Of a stretch of 64,000 bases of DNA, positions 5,068 to 17,235 are shown in pieces. The first letter of the stretch is position 1; each line of letters begins with the position of its first letter. The stretch covers positions 1 through 64,000 of the forward strand of contig JAJDXM010000085.1 in assembly GCA_022823225.1 (NCBI GenBank). The letters are read 5' to 3'. Made by a program: the position numbers and the translations under genes. Source of the stretch: Gemmatimonadota bacterium (GTDB lineage: Bacteria > Gemmatimonadota > Gemmatimonadetes > Longimicrobiales > Gaopeijiaceae). The notes beneath the pieces were generated by a model. It searched no databases, was not told where the DNA came from, and saw only the letters and a list, made by a program, of their open reading frames with translations.

Positions 5068-5363
5068 CAGTGCGGCTCGAGACCGTCCGGCCTGGAATGG
5101 CACTCGACCTCGAACATCCCGGGACCTTCGTCTATGCATTCTTGCATCTCGGGCGCGATACAGTGTCCATGCCAGTTGCCCTCGGGGCACATGAAGTCGC
5201 ATTCCTCCTCAAGGTCTTCCGAAGAGGAATCCGGGCAGTACCAGGAACAGAATTCACAGAATCCATCCGAAAGTCCCTGGACTGGCCCAGAGACTACGGG
5301 CAGCAACAGGATCACTGTTAGCGCGGCTATGCTCAGGGCTAAGGATCTGATCTGACGGTGCAT
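5067..5363 (-). CDS. Small secreted Cys-rich protein (98 aa)
   Basis: It has a signal peptide (M-H-R-Q-I-R, then a hydrophobic stretch ending about V-V-S-G) and an acidic mature part with eight Cys (F-C-E-F-C, Y-C, E-E-C-D-F-M-C, H-C, E-C, V-E-C). The even number suggests up to four disulfides in an exported domain. The start is well supported: GGAGGG lies about 7 bases before the ATG. It is coupled by a TGATG overlap to the propeller lipoprotein downstream. No family recognised; by context it belongs with the other Cys-rich/propeller pairs in this window. Confidence 0.75.
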   Translation of the reverse strand: MHRQIRSLALSIAALTVILLLPVVSGPVQGLSDGFCEFCSWYCPDSSSEDLEEECDFMCPEGNWHGHCIAPEMQECIDEGPGMFEVECHSRPDGLEPH

Positions 5364-5418
5364 TCTTACTTCCCTCCGATGAAAGGTTCGTAGTTTCGAA
5401 GTGTTAGCGGTATTCGCG

Positions 5419-5778
5419 CTATCGCCTCCCCGTGCTCAACGCGGCCTCAACGAGTGCTGTCAATGTTAGCGAATCCGCCGCCGAGCCCAGAAGTGTTTCG
5501 TTCACCAGGATTGTCGGGGTGCCATGCGCTTCGAGCTCTCTGGCCGCTTCGATGTCCCGCTCAATCGCCTCGACCGGGTCAAGGTCATCCAGGCAGGCTT
5601 CAAACCCCTCCAAGTCCGGCATGTTGATCTGGGTCGCGAAGGCCGCGAACCGCCCCCGAGGGTTCGCCATCCACTCGGTATCTCGGTAGAGCCATTCGTG
5701 GAACGCCTCGAACTTGCCCTGGATTCCCGAAGGTTCGAGTCTCCCAGAGTGTGGTGCCTCGTCGGCGAACTCCCTAAC
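5419..5778 (-). pseudogene. Remnant of a DsbA-like thioredoxin-fold oxidoreductase (C-terminal part)
   Basis: The frame encodes about 119 residues matching the second half of a DsbA-family protein: a Q-G-K-F-E-A-F-H helix, the segment M-P-D-L-E-G-F-E-A-C, and the cis-Pro region A-H-G-T-P-T-I-L-V-N. The first half with the C-x-x-C active site is missing. Homology begins immediately after the 33-bp element at 5781-5813, and the frame reads through the element into unrelated sequence. No plausible start with a ribosome binding site lies close by. I infer a deletion or recombination that joined the promoter element to the gene's middle. A short product from an internal ATG near 5695 cannot be excluded. 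Confidence 0.6.
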
Positions 5779-5780
5779 AG

Positions 5781-5813
5781 TTAATAGACACTTCTCGGAC
5801 CGAAAACGTGCAA
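5781..5813 (-). promoter_or_regulatory. 33-bp promoter-like element, copy A
   Basis: Read on the minus strand it starts TTGCACG and ends GTGTCTATTAA, with 21 bases between TTGCAC and TATTAA. The same sequence with the same spacing recurs at 10080-10112 and 18571-18603. All three copies are identical over TTGCACG, GAGA and GTGTCTATTAA and differ mostly in the middle. It faces the DsbA remnant, the Cys-rich gene, a propeller, the S9 peptidase and another propeller. I read it as a promoter (TTGCAC as -35, GTCTA/TATTAA as -10) probably used by the ECF sigma factor encoded at 7739-8419; that link is inference. Confidence 0.6.
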
Positions 5814-5984
5814 TCGACGAGAATCTTCGCCCGGTGACCCCTGCCGCGGAACTGACCCGGGCCCGCCCGTTTCCGGGGAAAGAATCCGCTTCCAACGAGA
5901 GTCCAGGCGGCGTCCAGACTCATCCCCCACAACCCCTCCCCGTGCTCGGGGTGTCGGGCAACCCTGAGGATGTCCGCCCCCATC

Positions 5985-7244
5985 TCAACCGTCATCAGTC
6001 TGCGGCAGCAACCTCCTGCCGACGACATGGGGCCTGTCCATCGAATCCCACCAGATCCCCCACACGTGGGTCTCCGTGGCGTCGCTGACGCGGAGCCATT
6101 CGGGGAGCAGGACCCGGCGCGGCTCGTCCTCCACATTGCCTCTTCGCACCACGTAGTGGACCCTGAGGGTGTCCGAGAGTTCGGCGGTCCGAAGCCAGAC
6201 TTCGCCCGAGGTCGTGAGAACGGGTGGTCCGGTCACAGCCGGCAGATGCTCCGGTCTGTAGAGCGCTGCGTCATACGCCGTCCGGACTTCGTCCATCGAG
6301 AATCCTGACGCACGTCGACGGTCGGCGACCAGGGCCACCCGCTCATCCACCCAAGCCTGAGCACGCTCCGATGTCAGCTTTCGAGGCTCAAACTGCAGGC
6401 GGCGGTGCCATACGGTATCGCCTCCGGCGCTCATCTCGATGAGCTCGACCGCACCGGGCTCGTCCCTCTGTCGCTTGACCAGGGCAACACCCGCCTCAAG
6501 GCGCACCTGATCACCGTCTCCAAACGGCTGTGTTCCATACACCCGGCTCCCGTCGGGCAATTCCGGGGCGTAGTACCGGTTCCGATAGTCCAGCCAAAGC
6601 AGTGGCTCAGGATCGTGCCACTGTCCCGTGTCGGCCCGGCGGACGCGCAGCAATGGTTGTATGTCGAACGGACGCCCGCCGAAGTGTCCCATCACAACGG
6701 AAAGCCCCACCGAGGGGACACCCAGGTACGAGCCGCCACGGGGCAAGGTGAGGGCCAGGCCGAAGCCCTAGTAGCTGAGACGCGAGTCCTCCCCCCGCAC
6801 GGTCTCTACCAGGTCCCCTCCTGGCGTGAAATAGGTGAATCTGGCACCGCCGGATTCCAGAACCGTGAATGACCCGTCCTCCTCGACGAACAACGCCTCG
6901 GCCGAGACGAATTCGCCGGGGCCCTCCCCCCTGCGACCCACGGTAAAGAGGAGCACGCCTTCGCTGCTCCAGACGCTGACTTGCGAGTTGGGTCCGTCAA
7001 GGACCAACACACGGTTCCGCGCCGGATCGGCACGGACATAGGGGCGCGAAAAGAACATATTCCGATCGGGGGCGTCGCCAAACCGGGACTCCGCACCGGT
7101 GATCCAGGTGGGCTGCTCAAGGTCGCCATGCTCTCGCCCTGCGTCGTCGCATGCTACACACGCTACAAGCAGGAGCGCTGGGTGCCGGCCGACCCGAAAA
7201 AAGAGCTGGGCCGCCAACCGCGCCCACTCAATCCCTGCCAGCAT
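5985..7244 (-). pseudogene. 6-bladed beta-propeller lipoprotein gene interrupted by an in-frame amber codon
   Basis: Two open frames in the same phase (6768-7244 and 5985-6746) are separated only by one TAG at 6768-6770 within T-A-C-T-A-G-G-G-C. Reading through it gives a continuous protein of about 419 residues. The N-terminal part has a lipoprotein-type signal (L-L-V-A-C-V-A-C) and the cluster motif G-R-R-G-E-G-P-G-E-F. The C-terminal part continues with normal blade strands. So this is a full-length propeller gene with one nonsense mutation, an assembly error, or a read-through site. It starts 33 bases after the anti-sigma stop, behind paired direct repeats at 7255-7294. Confidence 0.75.
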
Positions 7245-7254
7245 CCGTCCATAC

Positions 7255-7294
7255 TGTAATGTCCGGTTTACAAAATGTCATGTCCTCTTTACAA
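7255..7294. repeat. Pair of 19-bp direct repeats, 21-bp period (possible operator)
   Basis: On the plus strand the units at 7255-7273 and 7276-7294 match at 16 of 19 positions; both contain ATGTCC and end TTTACAA. The 21-bp period equals two helical turns, so a protein could bind both on one DNA face. One unit overlaps the last codons of the anti-sigma gene; the other lies in the 33-bp gap before the amber-interrupted propeller gene. It may be an operator for that gene. A remnant of an insertion-sequence end is the alternative. Confidence 0.45.
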
Positions 7295-7742
7295 CCATGT
7301 CTGCAGTTTCCACACTGTCCGCTTGATCTACCGGTGCTCGCTCACGGTCGCTCCGCCACCAGTGATACCACGCAACGATGGCGCCGCCGATCACCCCGAA
7401 GGCCACCGAATAGGGGTTCGGCGCGAAAATGCCTCCTCCACCGGTGGCCGCGAACGCAGCATACGCGCCCGCGCCAGCCAGAACGCCGGTGATGAGGAGG
7501 TCCAGCGGACCCGGGCGCCGGAGCAGCTTTGCGGCGCGGGCACGGACACGCGCCATCACACTCGCGTTCAGCTCCGCAGGCACCGGGATGTCGGGGTACA
7601 GGGCCCCGCGGACGGCTCGCGCGATCTCCCGGTCCAGGTCCCGCCTGCATTCGGGGCATTCCTCAAGGTGTCGCGACAGTGCCGGATCGGCCGTGCCGCC
7701 TCGAGCGACCCGGGTCAGTGTGGTCTCATTGGGACAACTCAT
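7278..7742 (-). CDS. Zinc-binding membrane anti-sigma factor
   Basis: 154 residues. The N-terminal domain has the ZAS-type signature H-L-E-E-C-P-E-C (H-x3-C-x2-C), with an earlier Cys at residue 3, which binds zinc and an ECF sigma factor. Two hydrophobic segments follow (about 80-105 and 112-132), anchoring it in the inner membrane. Its ATG overlaps the stop of the sigma gene (GGAGGAGGAATGA, which also supplies the ribosome binding site), so the two are coupled. The expected role is to hold the sigma factor at the membrane until an envelope or redox signal releases it. Confidence 0.85.
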   Translation of the reverse strand: MSCPNETTLTRVARGGTADPALSRHLEECPECRRDLDREIARAVRGALYPDIPVPAELNASVMARVRARAAKLLRRPGPLDLLITGVLAGAGAYAAFAATGGGGIFAPNPYSVAFGVIGGAIVAWYHWWRSDRERAPVDQADSVETADMVVKRT

Positions 7743-9510: not shown

Positions 9511-10014
9511 TTAGCCTGCTCCCATGCGCTTCGTGGACGACCCGGCCATTCGAGTCGACCGCGACCACCCACGGGGTGCGTCTTGTACGGGATGTATTCC
9601 CGGCGGGTCCTCCGATCCGGTCGTGGCTGCCACCACGACCCCCCATCGCTGTGCCCGCGCGTATTCCGCAGCCGCAGCTACCGGCCCTGGTGCGACGGCC
9701 AGTACGGTAAGTCCCTCAATTGCACCTGAGGCCAACAACGACGACCACAGCGGTGCGATCCGGCTGGTGTGAACGCAATCCGGATCGAAGATCAGGAGGA
9801 GCATGGGATGAGTTGGGTCCAGGGCGGCGATGGTCCCGTCGCTGTACTCAAGTGACATCAGCGACAGATCATCACCGATCTCGACCGGATCACCGGGGGG
9901 AGGCTCATTGCGGCCTGAGACGATACCGACGATCTGAAGAATGGCAACCAGGGCAAGACCGATGGCCACCGGCACTGCCAGTTTCGATTGCCCTCGCCGC
10001 CTGGATCGTGACAC
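9511..10014 (-). CDS. Membrane-anchored thioredoxin-like protein, probably frameshifted at its 3' end
   Basis: It starts with GTG at 10014. A basic N-terminus and one transmembrane segment (about 11-34) precede a thioredoxin-like domain with L-L-L-I-F-D-P-D-C-V-H-T near residues 72-83. Only the first Cys of the usual C-x-x-C is present. After about residue 130 the frame gives low-complexity sequence, while a frame one base off encodes a typical ending (T-P-W-V-V-A-V-D-S-N-G-R-V-V-H-E-A-H-G) and stops at 9476. A 1-base lesion near 9612-9625 therefore seems likely and the intact gene would be 9476-10014. It is the first gene after promoter element B. Confidence 0.65.
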   Translation of the reverse strand: MSRSRRRGQSKLAVPVAIGLALVAILQIVGIVSGRNEPPPGDPVEIGDDLSLMSLEYSDGTIAALDPTHPMLLLIFDPDCVHTSRIAPLWSSLLASGAIEGLTVLAVAPGPVAAAAEYARAQRWGVVVAATTGSEDPPGIHPVQDAPRGWSRSTRMAGSSTKRMGAG

Positions 10015-10211: not shown

Positions 10212-10778
10212 CTACTCGACCCGCGTGGACTCGTTCCCGCCCCCGGCCACGAGAACGCGTGACAGGAGTGTGAGGTTGTCGTAGGCAGGATTCGCTACCT
10301 TGCCACGAACGACCCCGTATCGATCTACTCCGATCGCGAAGGGTGTCAAGAAAACGCGCCACGATGCGGACGTGTCTCCGGTGGGATCCGCGATCACGGA
10401 CACCTCCGGACCCAACTCCCCGGCGAATTCGCGCACGCGTTCGACGGGCCCGGAACAGCATACGACGGTCTCCAGAGCTTCCGCCTGGTCGGCCGCAAAA
10501 TGAGAGATCTGAGGGCGGCGGCGCCAGCACGGATCGCACGTGACCGCCATGAACAGGACCACCCTTGGGCGTCCCGGAGTTGTAGCGGCGAGCCGGACTT
10601 CCTCACCCTTGAGACGGGGCACGGTCGTGCCCTCCGGAGGCCCGTGAAGGCGGGATCGGCCCTCGTGGGAGCCGAGCAGCAGATCGGCGTGCTCCCTCAG
10701 CATCACGATCATACCCGCTCCCAGAATGAGCACCACCACCCACAGGATGCCGTAGCTGGTCCAGAACAGCCAAGTCAC
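10212..10778 (-). CDS. MauD-like membrane-anchored thiol-disulfide oxidoreductase
   Basis: 188 residues from a GTG at 10778 that overlaps the stop of the MauE-like gene (GTGA). One N-terminal transmembrane segment (about 4-25) is followed by a thioredoxin/TlpA-like domain with active site C-D-P-C at residues 81-84. The acidic/hydrophobic strand arrangement and the late segment L-T-P-F-A-I-G-V-D-R-Y-G suit a periplasmic thioredoxin fold. In methylamine-utilisation loci MauD supports disulfide formation in the Cys-rich light chain; a similar role for the Cys-rich proteins encoded upstream is inferred from context. Confidence 0.75.
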   Translation of the reverse strand: MTWLFWTSYGILWVVVLILGAGMIVMLREHADLLLGSHEGRSRLHGPPEGTTVPRLKGEEVRLAATTPGRPRVVLFMAVTCDPCWRRRPQISHFAADQAEALETVVCCSGPVERVREFAGELGPEVSVIADPTGDTSASWRVFLTPFAIGVDRYGVVRGKVANPAYDNLTLLSRVLVAGGGNESTRVE

Positions 10779-11398
10779 GTTGCACGGCCTCCGGCTTGGT
10801 CCTCCGATCGTACAAAGGCCTCGACTTCCTCGCTCCGCAGGCGTGCCCCCGCAGTTCGCATTGCGACCACCGCGGCAATCATGCCGTACAAGAGAAGTAC
10901 CCCCACCGTGGTCGCGGCGGCAAGAGCGATCGTCGCGGCGGGAAACGCCCACAGCGGCTGCACAGCCGTCGGAGATTGTGTGACGGCGAACGCAACAGCG
11001 ATGAGCACAGCATTTCGAGCGAGGTCCAGGGAGCCAACAGGCCCTGTGTCGGTATGGTTTCCAAAGCAGGCGCAGCCCCCTTGGTAATCGCGTCGGCGAA
11101 GCACGAAGAGCGCGGCCGTGGCGGCACACAGAAACCCCACCGTGCCCCTAGCCGCCATGTCCGTATGGACACCCGCGACCAGCAGGCCGGCCAAGAGCAC
11201 CTCGAAACCCACGATGCCAGCTGCCAGGAAAGCGATCGCTGCTGCGGGCGCCCGAGGCATCAGGAAGCGAAGCACACCGCGAAACCCACCCCAGTCGCGG
11301 AGCTTCGCCCACCCCGCGAAGCCGAGCACGACGGCGAGGAACGCTCGGCCCAAAGCGGCGATGTCGCCCGTTTCCGGAGCAAGAGACTGCGAGATCAT
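10775..11398 (-). CDS. MauE/DoxX-like redox-associated membrane protein
   Basis: 207 residues with about five transmembrane segments and a C-A-C-F-G motif (Cys 109 and 111) in a loop after R-R-R-D-Y-Q-G-G, the pattern seen in MauE-type proteins (usually C-x-C-F-G). Such proteins are thought to pass electrons to a partner thioredoxin during disulfide formation outside the cytoplasm. The partner is encoded immediately downstream with a start-stop overlap. The gene starts 5 bases after the propeller stop at 11403. Function in this cluster is inferred from the pairing. Confidence 0.75.
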   Translation of the reverse strand: MISQSLAPETGDIAALGRAFLAVVLGFAGWAKLRDWGGFRGVLRFLMPRAPAAAIAFLAAGIVGFEVLLAGLLVAGVHTDMAARGTVGFLCAATAALFVLRRRDYQGGCACFGNHTDTGPVGSLDLARNAVLIAVAFAVTQSPTAVQPLWAFPAATIALAAATTVGVLLLYGMIAAVVAMRTAGARLRSEEVEAFVRSEDQAGGRAT

Positions 11399-11402
11399 GC
11401 GT

Positions 11403-12599
11403 TCAAGGTTCGCTGGGTGGGTTTGGGGCGGGCTGGAACCTGAGTCGCACCACCTGTTCCACGTCGAATTCCACCCTTCTTACGCCGACCGCCACGTCGC
11501 CGCTCAATCCGCCACGCCAGATTTCGATCCCCCTCGGCCACTCGGCCTCATGGAGAAACCGGCCCTCCGAGTCATACACGTGCGCCCGATGCATGGAGTC
11601 GGCTTCCGCCTGCCAAAAGCAGACCCACAGCCGACCGTCGTCGTCGTACCACATGCGGTTGATCACCGGCTTCCTCTCCGGGATCCGGTAATCCGTGTAG
11701 TCTACCAATTCAAGTGGTCCCCCGGACCGGAGCACGTCGCGGGTATTCGCCAGCTCTTCGTACCCTTCCCGCATCTCCCCTTCACTGACAAGAGGTCCTA
11801 GCCGGTCGCTCTGCACCCTGGCCGTTTGCGCGCCATCCGGTCCGTGAACGCGAATGTCGTAGACCGGAGAAAAGACCTGAGCGAACCCGCCGTCAGGCGC
11901 ATGGGCCACGAGGACTCTGGCCGCGAACGGTGGAGGGAAGGCACCTGGATTGGTCCCCAGAGTCGGCGACCGAATTACCATGACAGGCCATTCCCATACG
12001 CCGAAATCCGGAGCTGAATGCACGTTAGGCACTCTGCCCCATACCTCCCCGCTCTCCGTCACCTGAACGTGCTCGTCCTTGGCTCCCTGATTACTTGGCC
12101 CCCTGCGCGGGACCGTGATTCCCGTCGGCCCAGCAAACATCGGGTTGCCGCAGAGCGCTCTTGTACTGGGGTCGCGGACAACGAAGGACTCCAGGTAGCG
12201 CACACCTCCGGGACCGACCGTAAAGATCTCGAAGGAAATCGTCTGATTCACCCAGAGTCGGCCGTCCGGATCGAACGCGAGGCCGCAAAGAAGCGGTGAG
12301 CTGAACTCGCCGGGGCCCTCGCCTCGTCCTCCAATGCTGACAACGTGTTTTCCGCGGTGATCGAATACGCGAACCGTGCGCGATCCGGAGTCGGCCGCGT
12401 ATATGAGTCCCTCCGGATCCCGTGCAAGCGCCTGCACGTCGTGGAACAGGTATGCCGGATCGCCGTCCAGGATGGCCCCGATAGCCAGCTCAACCTCCCC
12501 CCGCAAGAGCGCCGCCTCCTGGGCAACCCCCTCGCCGGGGACGCGGCTGTGCCTGCGACTGCCGCCAACGATCCCGAGCTCATCGTCGAGAGACGTCAT
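11403..12599 (-). CDS. 6-bladed beta-propeller protein, possibly with a disrupted signal peptide
   Basis: 398 residues; the propeller shows G-G-R-G-E-G-P-G-E-F, D-P-D-G-R-L-W-V and D-D-D-G-R-L-W-V turns. The ATG at 12599 has AGGGA about 10 bases before it. Unlike its relatives, the N-terminus in this frame is not hydrophobic. The +1 frame just inside offers a weak signal-like stretch (M-S-S-G-S-L-A-A-V-A-G-T-A-A), so an early frameshift is possible. It lies between the Tat-type Cys-rich gene and the MauE/MauD-like pair, the place of the propeller subunit in a mau locus. Confidence 0.75.
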   Translation of the reverse strand: MTSLDDELGIVGGSRRHSRVPGEGVAQEAALLRGEVELAIGAILDGDPAYLFHDVQALARDPEGLIYAADSGSRTVRVFDHRGKHVVSIGGRGEGPGEFSSPLLCGLAFDPDGRLWVNQTISFEIFTVGPGGVRYLESFVVRDPSTRALCGNPMFAGPTGITVPRRGPSNQGAKDEHVQVTESGEVWGRVPNVHSAPDFGVWEWPVMVIRSPTLGTNPGAFPPPFAARVLVAHAPDGGFAQVFSPVYDIRVHGPDGAQTARVQSDRLGPLVSEGEMREGYEELANTRDVLRSGGPLELVDYTDYRIPERKPVINRMWYDDDGRLWVCFWQAEADSMHRAHVYDSEGRFLHEAEWPRGIEIWRGGLSGDVAVGVRRVEFDVEQVVRLRFQPAPNPPSEP

Positions 12600-12635
12600 T
12601 TTCGTATTTCCCTGGCTCAGACCGTCATTATCATG

Positions 12636-13031
12636 TCACACTACTCTGTCGCACCCTGCGTAACCAAACGTCCAGCAAGTACAATACTCCCACCGTGTCC
12701 CGGGACAAAAACAGTCACATACGTGCGCCCAGGCCCCCCCACCCATTGCGTGACACCAGCAGTTGGCTCCGGCACCCGGCCATTGCTTGCTGTACCTGGT
12801 ACAGGGTCCTGCACTCGGTTCGCAACCTCCGCTGCATTGTCCGACCTCGTCGCATTCGCAGACGCCGCTCGGAATGACGCGCGGGGACGCGGGCCGTGCG
12901 ACACCACCGAACGTGACCAGCGCCAATGTGCGGGTGAAGGCGCGCCGGCTGAGCGCGAGGGCGCGGGGACGTTTCGGATCGTGAACCTTTTCGGTCACCC
13001 GAATCAAGCAGCGATACAGACTCGAAAGCAT
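12636..13031 (-). CDS. Tat-signal, Cys- and Trp-rich secreted protein (MauA-like by context)
   Basis: 131 residues. The N-terminus has a twin-arginine signal (S-R-R-A-F-T-R-T then L-A-L-V-T-F-G-G-V-A). The mature part of about 85 residues contains 13 Cys (C-E-C, Q-C, G-G-C, N-C-W-C, C-D-C-F-C, Y-C-T-C) and five Trp. Methylamine dehydrogenase light chain MauA is also a Tat-exported small protein with about 12 Cys and a two-Trp (TTQ) cofactor, and its genes sit beside a propeller, mauE and mauD, as here. AGGAGG lies 5 bases before the ATG. Homology to MauA is suggested by composition and order, not proved. Confidence 0.7.
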   Translation of the reverse strand: MLSSLYRCLIRVTEKVHDPKRPRALALSRRAFTRTLALVTFGGVARPASPRVIPSGVCECDEVGQCSGGCEPSAGPCTRYSKQWPGAGANCWCHAMGGGAWAHVCDCFCPGTRWEYCTCWTFGYAGCDRVV

Positions 13032-13081
13032 CGTGGCCTCCTGTTAGATTCCCAAGATTCGATTTACGACACTGCGCAACG

Positions 13082-13678
13082 TCATTCGAACGGTGCGAGA
13101 TTCCAGTATTGAACCACGACGCCCACCAGGAACGACGTGACGAGCCGACCGAATAGGTCGGGCAGGGGTCTCGACCAGCCCAACCAGTCCAGGCAGTCGT
13201 GTGTTTGTGGTGGTCGCCGCGACAGACATCTGCCAACCACAATCAGCGGAACGGCGCGAGCCAGACCGAAGGCTCCGAAGAGACCGGCCGCCAGAAGCGG
13301 CATCTCCGCAGTGGCGACGAGCAACGCCAGAACGTACACGGTTCCTGTCGTGATCGGCGTCGCGAACCCCGTTCCCAACGCGGCCCCGAACAGCAGTGAA
13401 TAGCCCGACCTCCCGAACCGGCTCCAACCTCGCGGAACCATCCAGCGACCGGAAGGCGGTCGAAGCGAGGTGAACAGAATCGGCCTCAGGAGTAGCGCGG
13501 CGGCGGCAACGAGGGCCGTTCCGTGAAGCGCGCCTACCTGCAGGAGTCCACCCAGCGACTGCAGCGCGACCCCGACAAGGGCACCCGCGGCGACGGCACC
13601 GAGCGCGAAGGCGCCCGAACCGGCAAGGAACTGTCGCAACCATGGTTTAGCGTCGTCACCCACCGGGGACGTGATCAC
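13082..13678 (-). CDS. CcdA/MauF-like integral membrane protein
   Basis: 198 residues from a GTG, with about five to six hydrophobic segments, including a Gly/Ala-rich one with F-G-A-A-L-G-T-G-F-A-T-P-I-T-T-G, the style of CcdA/DsbD transmembrane helices with a Pro at the centre. The intramembrane Cys pair of CcdA is not visible; the Cys present lie in a loop (G-R-C-L and H-D-C-L). In mau loci the membrane protein MauF sits with MauE and MauD. I infer a role in electron transfer or export for the Cys-rich proteins. It begins 18 bases after a small membrane protein gene. Confidence 0.5.
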   Translation of the reverse strand: MITSPVGDDAKPWLRQFLAGSGAFALGAVAAGALVGVALQSLGGLLQVGALHGTALVAAAALLLRPILFTSLRPPSGRWMVPRGWSRFGRSGYSLLFGAALGTGFATPITTGTVYVLALLVATAEMPLLAAGLFGAFGLARAVPLIVVGRCLSRRPPQTHDCLDWLGWSRPLPDLFGRLVTSFLVGVVVQYWNLAPFE

Positions 13679-13696
13679 GTGGATCGAGTTCGTTCC

Positions 13697-13918
13697 TCAC
13701 GGCGAATACGTTGCAAGCCATCCGGAAAGGGCGGCCAGCAGGAATGAAGTCCACAGCAGCGCGGCAGGTCCGGCCAGAGCCCAGCCGGCCGCTACGGCGA
13801 CCAACGGAAGCAGGTACAACCTGACGCCCTTCGCGACCCCGGAGAGCCGGTGGTCATACAGCCCGTCCAGAGGAACCGACGGGCCATGCGGCGCCTGGTC
13901 AGGGACGGCGGATGACAT
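13697..13918 (-). CDS. Small two-helix membrane protein (73 aa)
   Basis: The ATG at 13918 overlaps the last 20 bases of the upstream propeller gene (same sequence read in another phase). The N-terminal third is soluble; the rest forms two hydrophobic segments (about 31-46 and 49-67: L-L-P-L-V-A-V-A-A-G-W-A-L and L-W-T-S-F-L-L-A-A-L). The tight overlap and the following CcdA-like gene 18 bases on suggest it is a subunit or partner of that membrane protein. No family recognised. Confidence 0.55.
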   Translation of the reverse strand: MSSAVPDQAPHGPSVPLDGLYDHRLSGVAKGVRLYLLPLVAVAAGWALAGPAALLWTSFLLAALSGWLATYSP

Positions 13919-15065
13919 ATCGAACCAGGTACGAGATGTCGAGTTCGTCACGCTCGACGAACCACAGCGATTCCGCATCCACCCACGCCATCCTGCCTTG
14001 CGGCGCATCGACACGCGCAAAGGCACGGCCGGATTGGTCCAGAACTTCCCACTCGAATGATTCGACGCCCGTGCGGAGGCGCAGCCAGGTCGAGCCGTCC
14101 GGCACGGCACGTACACCGCCGACAGGAGGGAAGAACTCCAACGCGCCATAGGCTCTCTCCAACTGCCGCCGAATGCGGCCCTCAGGAAACGTGGGTTCCT
14201 CGACGATGTCGCGGACCTGGCGCTCCACGTGCCGTGACCGCCACGCCGCGGGCACGCGGATCGGATCGTACGGGATCTCGCGCGCCCACGCGGTGTCCGC
14301 CAGGGCGTCGAACCGGATCACGCGAAACGTGTGGGGTTCGGCGCTCGTCGGGGCGGTGCGGTGCACCACGACGAATCCCGACCCGTCCGGCGCGACCGAT
14401 AGCAGCGAGCGGTACGACACGGGAATGGTCGAAACCACCGTCCAGCCGATCCCAAGCAGTCGGACGACGTTGTTGCGCCCGACGATCATGGCCACCGTGT
14501 CCCGCAGCAGCCCATCGGGCCCGAATCGGAACACAGCCCCCGGCTTCCCGGCCTCCTCGTCCGCTGAAGTCAGGGCGTACCTGACGAGTCTGGAGCCATC
14601 CGGCAGAATCCCCCGCACGCTCAGCAGGCTGCTTGCCGGCATAGTCGGGTGGCCCTTGATCCGCGCCGACGACACGAAGCGGCCCTCGGCGTCAAAGTAC
14701 TGGTGGCGCTGCAACTCGGGATCGCCGACCCATACCCGGCCCTCGTGCACGCCCATGCTGCCCACCCTCCGAAACTCCCCCGGTCCTTCTCCCCTGCGGC
14801 CGATGAACCCGAGGAAATCCCCGGTGAGGGAGAAGACCCGGAGGCGGTGCTCCAACGGTTGCGCCACGAGCATCCGGTCACCCTGTACAATCACGCGTCC
14901 CACCCGAGTGAGTCCCGTCTCCGGGTCGAACGCATCGCCAATCGTGACGGTGCGCTCCAACGTCCACCGTTCCAGCTGCGCCGAGGCCGGGAGGGGCGAA
15001 GCGGCGCAGAAGCTAGCCAGCGCGGCACCCATCAAGGCGCCGGCGGCTATCTCAGATCTTGACAT
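13899..15065 (-). CDS. Secreted 6-bladed beta-propeller protein (paralogue 1 of a tandem pair)
   Basis: 388 residues with a signal peptide ending in A-S-A-Q and a mature start L-E-R-W-T-L-E-R-T. The motif G-R-R-G-E-G-P-G-E-F is present. It aligns end to end with the 387-residue product of 15615-16778 (shared: W-T-L-E-R-T, G-E-G-P-G-E-F, S-A-E-P-H-x-F-R-V-I-R-F-D, E-F-F-P-P-V-G, Y-L-V-R-Y-V-I-R-R-P), so the pair arose by tandem duplication. Its ATG lies inside the end of the Cys-rich gene (14-base overlap), just as in the sister pair. Probably binds or serves its Cys-rich partner in the periplasm. Confidence 0.8.
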   Translation of the reverse strand: MSRSEIAAGALMGAALASFCAASPLPASAQLERWTLERTVTIGDAFDPETGLTRVGRVIVQGDRMLVAQPLEHRLRVFSLTGDFLGFIGRRGEGPGEFRRVGSMGVHEGRVWVGDPELQRHQYFDAEGRFVSSARIKGHPTMPASSLLSVRGILPDGSRLVRYALTSADEEAGKPGAVFRFGPDGLLRDTVAMIVGRNNVVRLLGIGWTVVSTIPVSYRSLLSVAPDGSGFVVVHRTAPTSAEPHTFRVIRFDALADTAWAREIPYDPIRVPAAWRSRHVERQVRDIVEEPTFPEGRIRRQLERAYGALEFFPPVGGVRAVPDGSTWLRLRTGVESFEWEVLDQSGRAFARVDAPQGRMAWVDAESLWFVERDELDISYLVRYVIRRP

Positions 15066-15465
15066 GCCGGAGGCCCGAACGCAGTTCAGCGATTCTCGCC
15101 GGGGAGTAGCGTTGTCGAACGATCCCGCCGGTGCATCCGTGCCGGGCCACCTCCGGCAGGACGTTGGTGGCGGGCGCCGCCTCCTGCATCCGTCGGGGGA
15201 GCTCCGCCGAGTAGACGCGGCCGGCCTGATCGAGAACCATGAGGCAATTCGGGCTACCGCCCGGGCGGTTGCTGTGGCTGCATTGCCGCCCTCCCCTCAA
15301 CAGCCTGCATGCTTCGAATGCCGTTTCCTCCGTCGCTCTGCAAGCAAAGTAATGCGGAGGAGGGTCTTCGTCCTCCTCCGGCGGAGGAGGGTCTTCGTCC
15401 TCCTCCTCCGGTTCCCACCGCTCGCACTCATAGCAGTAATCCTGGGCCGTGGCGCGCGCCGGCAC
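15052..15465 (-). CDS. Secreted Cys-rich protein with acidic/Pro repeats; signal peptide separated by a frameshift
   Basis: The frame gives 137 residues: Cys-rich start (D-Y-C-Y-E-C), an acidic/Pro segment encoded by a 27-bp tandem repeat, more Cys, and a C-terminal block C-T-G-G-I-V-R-Q-R-Y-S shared with the product of 16765-17235. From the GTG at 15465 it would lack most of a signal peptide. An ATG at 15541 with AGGGAGGG before it starts M-N-K-P-F-N-Y-F-N-Y-L-F-P; a one-base shift near 15500-15515, by a C run, would join it to R-S-L-L-A-I-A-C-L-G-V-P-A-R-A-T-A-Q, a good signal peptide. So the intact gene is probably 15052-15541. Confidence 0.6.
   Translation of the reverse strand: MPARATAQDYCYECERWEPEEEDEDPPPPEEDEDPPPHYFACRATEETAFEACRLLRGGRQCSHSNRPGGSPNCLMVLDQAGRVYSAELPRRMQEAAPATNVLPEVARHGCTGGIVRQRYSPARIAELRSGLRHVKI
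15354..15407. repeat. 27-bp tandem repeat, two copies, inside the Cys-rich gene
   Basis: Two 27-base units (15354-15380 and 15381-15407) match at 26 of 27 positions. On the minus strand they encode E-E-D-E-D-P-P-P-P twice, adding nine acidic/Pro residues per unit without changing the frame. The sister Cys-rich gene at 16765-17235 has no such segment, so the repeat is a recent expansion in this copy. Confidence 0.85.
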
Positions 15466-15614: not shown

Positions 15615-16778
15615 TCACGGGCGGCGAATGACATATCGAACCAAGTACGGGACATCGAGTTCGTCCTCTTCCACGAACCACAGCGAGTCGGTGCCCGCCC
15701 ACATCATCCTGCCCTGCGGAGGAGGCTCGACGCGCGCAAGGGAACGGCCGAACGCGTCCAGCACCTCCCACTCGGAGGTATCCGCGCCCGTGCGGACGAG
15801 CAGCCAGGTACTGCCATCCGCGCCGGCCTGCACATCCCCCACGGGAGGAAAGAACTCCAGATTCCGATAGGCGCCCTCGAGCACGCGGAGCAGTGGCGCG
15901 CTCAAGTCGCTGCGCTCCTCAAGGTGCCGAGACCGCCACTCGGAAGAGACCGGGATCGGATCGTACGGGATGTCGCGCACCCACGCGGTGTCCGCCGTGG
16001 CGTCGAACCGAATCACACGAAAGGCGTGGGGCTCGGCGCTCATGGCGGCCTCCCGGTGCACGATGACGAATCCCGACCCGTCCGCACTCGGGGCGAACAG
16101 CGACCGGTAGGATTCGGGCAGCCAAGTAACCGTCCTCCCGAGCTTCAACGCGCCCGAACGGCCTGCGAGAACCGACACAGTGTCTCGGGGCGATCCCTGC
16201 GCATTGAGCCGTATCACGTGTTGCGGGCGATCGGGAAAGGCTGCGTCCTCGGTAGCGTACCGAAGGAACGTGACGAGCATGGACCCATCCGCGAGCACAG
16301 CGCGCACGCTCATGTCGCCCATGGAAAGCGTCGGATGGCCCCGGACCCGTATCGAGGAAGCGTAGCGGCCTTCCGGGTCGAAGTACTGCACGCGTCCCCT
16401 GAGCCGGTCGGAGACCCAGACCAGCCCATCGCGGACGCCTATCCCGTTCACCTCCCTGAACTCCCCCGGCCCCTCGCCCCGGCCGCCGAGGAAGCCCTGG
16501 AAGTCGCCCGCGAGGGAGAAGATCCGGAGGCGCTGCTCATGGTGTTGCATCACGAACAGGCGCTCGCCTACAACGATCACATCGCGCACCCAGGTCAATC
16601 CCCGTTCCGGGTCGTGGTGATGGCCGATCCTGATGGTGCGCTCCAAGGTCCACCTCTCACCCTGAGCGGAGCCGGAGCACGGTGAAGCCGCCCAAAGGCA
16701 CGAGCAGCCGAGTGCCGCCACCGCCATGGTGGCCAACCGAGGACCCCCTCCGGGGACCTTTGCGTTAGATCGTGACAC
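15615..16778 (-). CDS. Secreted 6-bladed beta-propeller protein (paralogue 2 of a tandem pair)
   Basis: 387 residues from a GTG at 16778 that overlaps the Cys-rich gene end by 14 bases; the start reads M-S-R-S as in its paralogue. The signal peptide ends S-G-S-A-Q, then G-E-R-W-T-L-E-R-T. The motif G-G-R-G-E-G-P-G-E-F is present, and the C-terminus is again Y-L-V-R-Y-V-I-R-R-P. The frame stays open upstream to 16928, but that part overlaps the Cys-rich gene and has no signal peptide. Pair member of the Cys-rich protein upstream; no catalytic motif seen. Confidence 0.8.
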   Translation of the reverse strand: MSRSNAKVPGGGPRLATMAVAALGCSCLWAASPCSGSAQGERWTLERTIRIGHHHDPERGLTWVRDVIVVGERLFVMQHHEQRLRIFSLAGDFQGFLGGRGEGPGEFREVNGIGVRDGLVWVSDRLRGRVQYFDPEGRYASSIRVRGHPTLSMGDMSVRAVLADGSMLVTFLRYATEDAAFPDRPQHVIRLNAQGSPRDTVSVLAGRSGALKLGRTVTWLPESYRSLFAPSADGSGFVIVHREAAMSAEPHAFRVIRFDATADTAWVRDIPYDPIPVSSEWRSRHLEERSDLSAPLLRVLEGAYRNLEFFPPVGDVQAGADGSTWLLVRTGADTSEWEVLDAFGRSLARVEPPPQGRMMWAGTDSLWFVEEDELDVPYLVRYVIRRP

Positions 16779-17235
16779 GTCGGAGTCCAGCACGTATTTC
16801 GGTGATGCGCGCCAGCGAGTAACGCCGTTGGACGATGGCACCGGTGCATGCTTGCCGCGCGACTGCCCAGGACTTTTCGGCGGCGGGCACGACGAGCTGC
16901 TGCCACCAGGGGATCTCCACCCCACCAACCGCGCCCGTCACCACCCCTGAAGCCCAATGCAAAGCCTCATGCATCGCCCTGCCGTCGAAACCAGGATCGG
17001 CGACGCAATCCGGCTCATCGCTGCTCATCGCGCAGTCCTGGTGCGGCTTCACGACCAAGCACGTGTCGTAGCCATCGCCTTCCAGTTTTGGCACGCACTC
17101 CGGCGGACCGTTGTCCTCCTTCACGCACTCGGTGCACCCCTCCTCTTGGGCGGCGACGCTTTCCGGCATCCCGGACACACCGAGTGCGAACAGCGCCGCG
17201 AGGACCGGGAGCAGGGAGCTTGTTGCATTACGCAT
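16765..17235 (-). CDS. Secreted Cys-rich protein paired with a propeller
   Basis: 156 residues. The signal peptide (M-R-N-A-T-S-S-L-L-P-V-L-A-A-L-F-A-L) ends about V-A-A-Q. The mature part has seven Cys, beginning G-C-T-E-C, a middle region with P-W-W, and a C-terminal block C-T-G-A-I-V-Q-R-R-Y-S followed by A-R-I-T-E-I. The block and the C-x-E-C start are shared with the product of 15052-15541. The ATG overlaps the stop of the upstream gene by 8 bases (ATGCGTAA). Unknown family; by architecture the small partner of the propeller downstream. Confidence 0.7.
   Translation of the reverse strand: MRNATSSLLPVLAALFALGVSGMPESVAAQEEGCTECVKEDNGPPECVPKLEGDGYDTCLVVKPHQDCAMSSDEPDCVADPGFDGRAMHEALHWASGVVTGAVGGVEIPWWQQLVVPAAEKSWAVARQACTGAIVQRRYSLARITEIRAGLRRVTI

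Follow-up and report, generated by a model that had tools for sequence, protein, structure and literature searches.

A mau-like gene cassette of a Gemmatimonadota bacterium with a MauF gene that very probably encodes a selenoprotein

What does a mau-like gene set make when no MauG accompanies it? The question is raised by a stretch of 64,000 nucleotides (nt) of DNA (contig JAJDXM010000085.1 of assembly GCA_022823225.1; hereafter the window) from a Gemmatimonadota metagenome-assembled genome of 4.19 Mb. A preliminary description of the window named five open reading frames (ORFs) of mau-like types and noted that no di-heme MauG-type gene is visible in the window. Both observations hold, and the five ORFs all lie on the minus strand in the order named: MauF-like protein, Cys-rich protein exported by twin-arginine translocation (Tat), beta-propeller, MauE, and MauD-like protein. 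The spacing is 50 nt from MauF to the Cys-rich gene, 36 nt from the Cys-rich gene to the propeller, and 4 nt from the propeller to MauE. The cassette is packed as one transcription unit and is a conserved operon. Its MauF is very probably a selenoprotein, with an in-frame UGA serving as the codon for selenocysteine (Sec). The elements, all on the minus strand, are as follows.

13082..13918, minus strand: MauF-like membrane protein, putative selenoprotein of 278 residues with U74; ATG at 13918, UGA read through; assigned by homology
13697..13699, minus strand: in-frame UGA, proposed Sec codon U74, aligned with the invariant MauF Cys of 'SPCG'
13654..13671, minus strand: candidate bacterial Sec insertion sequence (SECIS) hairpin CGUCCCC-GGU-GGG-U-GACG; from its fold and synonymous constraint
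12636..13031, minus strand: Tat-exported Cys-rich protein of 131 residues with invariant C-W-C and C-D-C; from the ORF and a family alignment
11403..12599, minus strand: beta-propeller (DUF5128/NHL) without signal peptide; from domain matches and hydrophobicity
10775..11398, minus strand: MauE/DoxX-family membrane protein with CxCFG; PF07291 at 57.9 bits against a cut-off of 27
10212..10778, minus strand: MauD-like membrane-anchored thioredoxin with CDPC; redoxin domain; its GTG at 10778 overlaps the MauE stop

The ORF first described as CcdA/MauF-like (13678-13082) is indeed homologous to MauF. However, it represents just the 3' portion of the gene, and the same frame extends upstream to the ATG at 13918, so that MauF and the preceding propeller gene share 20 nt. 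An upstream small membrane ORF ends with GWLATYSP-UGA in frame with the ORF 13678-13082, and the read-through product is GWLATYSP-U-GTNSIHVITSPVGDD. At the corresponding site, Paracoccus MauF reads GGLLSTWSPCGYSSISLLRPDGRG, with WSPCG in place of YSP-UGA-G. The Cys at this site is the sole invariant Cys in the Cys-type MauF proteins of four Alphaproteobacteria. When seven Sec-type and four Cys-type MauF proteins are aligned as profiles (hhalign), the alignment spans 194 columns with an E value of 2.6e-14 and places the UGA on the Cys. The homology covers the full length including the SPxG motif, with 27% identity to Paracoccus denitrificans MauF. We also considered the small membrane ORF as a separate conserved protein and rejected it, as it ends with SP-UGA in frame with MauF in intact loci.

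The UGA is present at the MauF Cys site in all 11 Gemmatimonadota loci examined and in Thermomicrobium roseum, and is never another stop; TGA terminates just 58% of the genes in these loci. It is thus kept in 12 loci of two phyla, with coding conserved on either side; the codon-position pattern upstream of it is 0.32/0.22/0.55. A profile search in the order of Candidatus Palauibacter poriticola (genome G096) yields three more MauF loci, which are not among the sequences used to build the profile; each contains exactly one TGA, and all read SP-UGA-G. One locus of genome G281 (C19) keeps the UGA and has a frameshift further on. Another (C85) has no ATG, GTG, or TTG before U+24 (codons counted from the UGA), yet the residues between are conserved. 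In T. roseum, a lead of 20 codons precedes the motif LWSP-UGA-GYS, and read-through gives MTLWLVPLALASGCSALWSP-U-GYS. The true start of this gene is an ATG overlapping the mauD stop (ATGA), and its homology has an hhalign E value of 1.8e-11. The annotated hypothetical protein begins just after the UGA, i.e., it is truncated.

The sequence just downstream of the UGA is constrained beyond its amino acids. For pairs of codons encoding the same amino acid, we compared the observed identity with that expected from codon usage in 2000 simulations, which ignore sequence kinship; neutrality elsewhere in MauF serves as the control. At U+7 to U+16, 144 codon pairs are identical versus 55.2 expected, and none of the 2000 simulations is as high. 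Two codons in this segment are fixed in nine divergent sequences (Pro CCG, 9/9; Gly GGT, 9/9), although no other Gly codon is used as rarely as GGT in these loci. Codons -20 to -11 have 31 identical pairs versus 32 expected, and the ratios are near 1 over most of MauF, with milder rises at -10 to -1 (92 versus 66) and at U+21 to U+30. The segment contains the candidate SECIS hairpin, which has an apical loop starting with G, a bulged U, and a loop located 32 nt after the UGA. In seven aligned loci, 93.9% of the cells are paired and the loop G is invariant.

Searches for the Sec machinery in the genome of the window covered tRNA-Sec and SelB. Both are present: tRNA-Sec scores 79.6 bits (gathering score, 47), and SelB is a 650-residue ORF that matches TIGR00475 at 306.9 bits (cut-off, 242.25). 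The selenoprotein assignment of MauF is based on gene continuity, alignment with Cys, universality of the UGA, synonymous constraint, and the presence of tRNA-Sec and SelB, all of which are computed.

Which protein does the cassette serve? The 131-residue protein has the Tat motif SRRAF, five Trp, and 14 Cys, of which 13 follow residue 50. The preliminary description compared it with the mau light chain and its Trp-derived cofactor. A MauA-type light chain with a cofactor made from two Trp, tryptophan tryptophylquinone (TTQ), finds no support in the sequence comparisons. PF02975 (MauA) has no match in the genome of the window. When nine Cys-rich members are aligned with MauA/AauA by hhalign, only the Tat signal is aligned, with a probability of 7%. 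A PDB sequence search returns chance matches to Cys-rich viral glycoproteins as the best (E 0.07). MauA membership is thus unsupported at every level of sequence search, namely Pfam, NCBIfam, profile-profile, and PDB. A low-confidence model of the protein (predicted local distance difference test score, pLDDT, 59) gives no significant fold match, only partial matches with Z up to 4.0. The nine proteins share RR..F, 11 invariant Cys, C-D-C, and one Trp, that of C-W-C. No further Trp is invariant, and in some members the C-W-C residue is the sole Trp beyond the signal peptide, which makes TTQ impossible for this family. Judged by these comparisons, the cassette is not a methylamine dehydrogenase.

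Genuine MauA proteins (169-173 bits) are found in ordinary mau-like loci of other Gemmatimonadota (L093, L094, and L095, in G173, G374, and G203, respectively). Separately, the Cys-rich proteins of L062, L078, L079, L080, L081, and L131 carry a conserved Gly-rich C-terminal tail, GGGGRHPGELL/F, which may be a processing or recognition tail. The tail is absent from the Cys-rich proteins of the window, G012, and G009.

The propeller had been likened to the heavy chain of the mau locus. Instead, the 398-residue protein matches DUF5128 and NHL just above their cut-offs, and does not match PF06433 (MauB, Me-amine-dh_H) at E 1; in the genome-wide PF06433 search, the controls are silent too. No signal sequence is seen in the cassette propellers, whereas the operon's upstream propellers do carry one. 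Three loci are degraded: they no longer have the Cys-rich gene, and their propeller is joined to another part of the cassette, namely the Tat signal of the Cys-rich protein (G007), the first MauF helix (G011), or a truncated MauF (G096:C39). These fusions suggest selection for an exported propeller, which would therefore be carried by the Cys-rich Tat protein in intact loci. On this basis, co-export of the signal-less propeller with the Cys-rich protein is somewhat favored. The three deletions, each of which takes out the Cys-rich gene and leaves the propeller joined to one of these parts, map to L009 2725-4047, L053 7740-9272, and L133 8137-9675.

MauE is as described, with PF07291 above cut-off and the motif GGCACFG. 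Within the genus, strong MauE matches are found only in G000, G009, G011, and G012, which are the genomes carrying the propeller of the system. The MauD assignment holds for the type, with a redoxin domain and CDPC, but not for the equivalog, as TIGR02661 scores 22.4 bits against 188.6. The identical gene set is present in G012 (propeller and MauF 89-95% identical to those of the window), G009 (~30-40% identical), Ca. Palauibacter poriticola, and G281, indicating that the gene order is conserved beyond chance. Among Palauibacterales, the cassette is found in G096 (several copies), G281, and, in part, G333. MauF is linked to the Cys-rich gene in every intact locus.

In Paracoccus, MauD and MauE are required for the disulfide-rich light chain. 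The cassette is probably a mau-like maturation and export unit with Sec-MauF, and dedicated disulfide maturation of the Cys-rich protein by MauF, MauE, and MauD is fairly likely. In the proposed mechanism, tRNA-Sec and SelB would read the UGA at 13699-13697 as Sec at the RNA signal just downstream. The product would be one 278-residue membrane protein, the only redox residue of which, Sec74, occupies the CcdA/MauF 'SPC' position. MauF-Sec would exchange reducing equivalents with the cytoplasm via this single reactive residue, and would relay thiol/selenol redox equivalents through the membrane to MauD (CxxC). MauE (CxC) would oxidize, and MauD would isomerize or reduce. Together, the three proteins would introduce and correct disulfides in the Tat-exported protein with its 11 invariant Cys, while Sec would speed redox exchange and resist over-oxidation. 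The signal-less propeller would leave the cell bound to the Cys-rich protein (hitchhiking), as its working partner.

Several points weigh against these proposals. The candidate SECIS hairpin is modest, true covariation (compensatory change) is found in one pair only, and the 60-nt region after the UGA folds no better than shuffled sequences in most members. Translation could restart downstream of the UGA in members with an early start codon, as in G012 (ATG at U+2). For T. roseum, a search that covered the plasmid finds no SelB. MauF has no second conserved membrane Cys, and therefore a CcdA-type two-thiol relay is unavailable. The missing signal of the propeller is judged solely from hydrophobicity, and the values do not clearly divide it from propellers with Sec-type export signals.

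Could the UGA be a true stop? In a gene fission, a small membrane protein would end at the UGA, a second protein would start downstream, and the halves would assemble. Start codons soon after the UGA in several members would permit this, and TGA is an ordinary stop here, ending 117 of the 201 genes in these loci (58%). But the stop is UGA in 12/12 loci, exactly at the MauF Cys; two conserved residues, N (U+3) and I (U+5), precede the first possible start in many members; G281:C85 could not start before U+24; T. roseum would keep a mere 20-codon stub; and the genome has tRNA-Sec and SelB, with synonymous constraint right after the UGA. Fission is therefore very improbable. Still less credible is a misread UGA, a pseudogene remnant, or an assembly error. 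Although the G281:C19 gene is also frameshifted and several loci are destroyed by deletions, the identical UGA recurs in 12 loci of several genomes, with open frames and neutral synonymous patterns elsewhere.

The cassette could also serve another end. It may be a divergent methylamine or amine dehydrogenase, whose light chain has no recognizable similarity to MauA and acquires a quinone cofactor through a distant MauG. The gene order and types resemble mauFBEDA, two di-heme PF03150 genes are present, unlinked, on contigs C29 and C67, and MauA-like light chains (36.2 bits) lie beside propellers, MauE, MauD, and UGA-MauF in T. roseum. The locus, however, has no MauG, amicyanin, or cytochrome, and the Tat-limited MauA homology, the one invariant Trp, and the propeller not of MauB type make this reading distinctly improbable. 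Also doubtful, at little better odds, is that the product of selenoprotein MauF, MauE, and MauD is an exported enzyme or binding complex of a new kind, as the preliminary description suggested for the set. In this complex, the invariant C-W-C of the Cys-rich protein would carry a protein-derived Cys-Trp cofactor or other special thiol chemistry, and the propeller would be Tat-carried. A role of MauF-Sec in selenium or metal handling or peroxide sensing, with a Cys-rich protein that binds metals or signals rather than being disulfide-bonded, is unlikely though of more weight than the other alternatives. The C-x-C patterns could bind metals, but the constant linkage with MauE and MauD-type thiol oxidoreductases and the Tat export argue for disulfide maturation instead.

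How does this system relate to known ones? Like Paracoccus denitrificans MauF, the protein has a single membrane redox position 'SPxG' and has MauE, a MauD-type protein, a Tat Cys-rich protein, and a propeller as neighbors. Unlike it, the redox residue is UGA (Sec) rather than Cys, and the partners are not MauA/MauB. CcdA and DsbD have a P-C motif in the first helix region. MauF resembles them in general kind, as a small multi-helix redox membrane protein, but has one invariant redox residue (U74) and no PF02683 match. Full-length MauF matches no model of Pfam or NCBIfam, and its model (pLDDT 50, weak) gives generic helical-bundle matches with Z up to 6.5, with no CcdA listed. As in known prokaryotic selenoproteins, the UGA stands at the Cys of homologs, tRNA-Sec and SelB are present, and the sequence after the UGA is constrained. 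The T. roseum locus (NC_011961) is like that of the window in encoding MauE, MauD, Tat Cys-rich proteins, propellers, and a MauF with the UGA at the corresponding site. It differs in its light chains, which genuinely belong to PF02975 and have both tryptophans of TTQ. On this plasmid (L092, NC_011961.1 474850-489068), the two MauA-like light chains are at 1717-2169 and ~6900-7340, there are several propellers, one of which is fused to MauE, and no MauG is found in the 14 kb examined.

A 2026 inventory of 119 prokaryotic selenoprotein families or subfamilies has no MauF or CcdA entry; among the listed proteins, the nearest in spirit are membrane types, for example YeeE/YedE and the rhodanese/DsbD-fusion-like TsoB (PMC13188914). 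Neither deep-Sep (PMC12013277) nor an earlier review (PMC9312934) mentions a MauF/CcdA selenoprotein in its main text. With respect to the open-licence literature, in which we find no MauF or CcdA selenoprotein, Sec-MauF is an unreported selenoprotein family. It adds an integral-membrane family, in two phyla, to the selenoproteins, and annotation pipelines split or truncate it, as in T. roseum. Because Sec replaces the MauF residue, the residue is almost surely redox-active, and the long-unknown role of MauF therefore becomes directly testable. MauD/E/F, the accessory proteins of mau, also operate with partners besides MauA/MauB, and may act more generally as a module that matures Cys-rich Tat substrates with propeller partners.

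Four further genes lie upstream of MauF.

13899..15065, minus strand: propeller with its own Sec-type export signal, overlapping the MauF start; from signal and overlap
15052..15465, minus strand: small Cys protein with conserved C-terminus CTGGIVRQRYSPARIAELRSGLRH, 5' end uncertain, overlapping the next propeller; from ORF comparison
15615..16928, minus strand: second upstream DUF5128 propeller, start uncertain; from a domain match
16765..17234, minus strand: another small Cys protein, sharing the C-terminal motif of 15052..15465 (CTGAIVQRRYSLARITEIRAGLRR)

The propeller at 13899..15065 probably belongs to the cassette operon. Small exported Cys proteins precede the propellers with Sec-type export signals in the operon, both in the window (15052-15465 and 16765-17234) and in L062 (~5287-5954) and L080 (7409-7999). 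Their common C-terminus is C-S/T-G-A/G-I-V-x-R-x-Y-S ... LRRI, and no family is assigned. The one at 15052-15465 apparently no longer has an intact start and signal, perhaps through a frameshift. Outside the operon, 9511-10014 (minus strand) encodes a thioredoxin-like protein with a single Cys (DPDCVHT), the C-terminal part of which looks frameshifted. DUF5128/NHL-like propellers are hugely expanded, with 54-261 first-look candidates per genome of the genus, that of the window included. Some further propeller matches contain one internal TGA.

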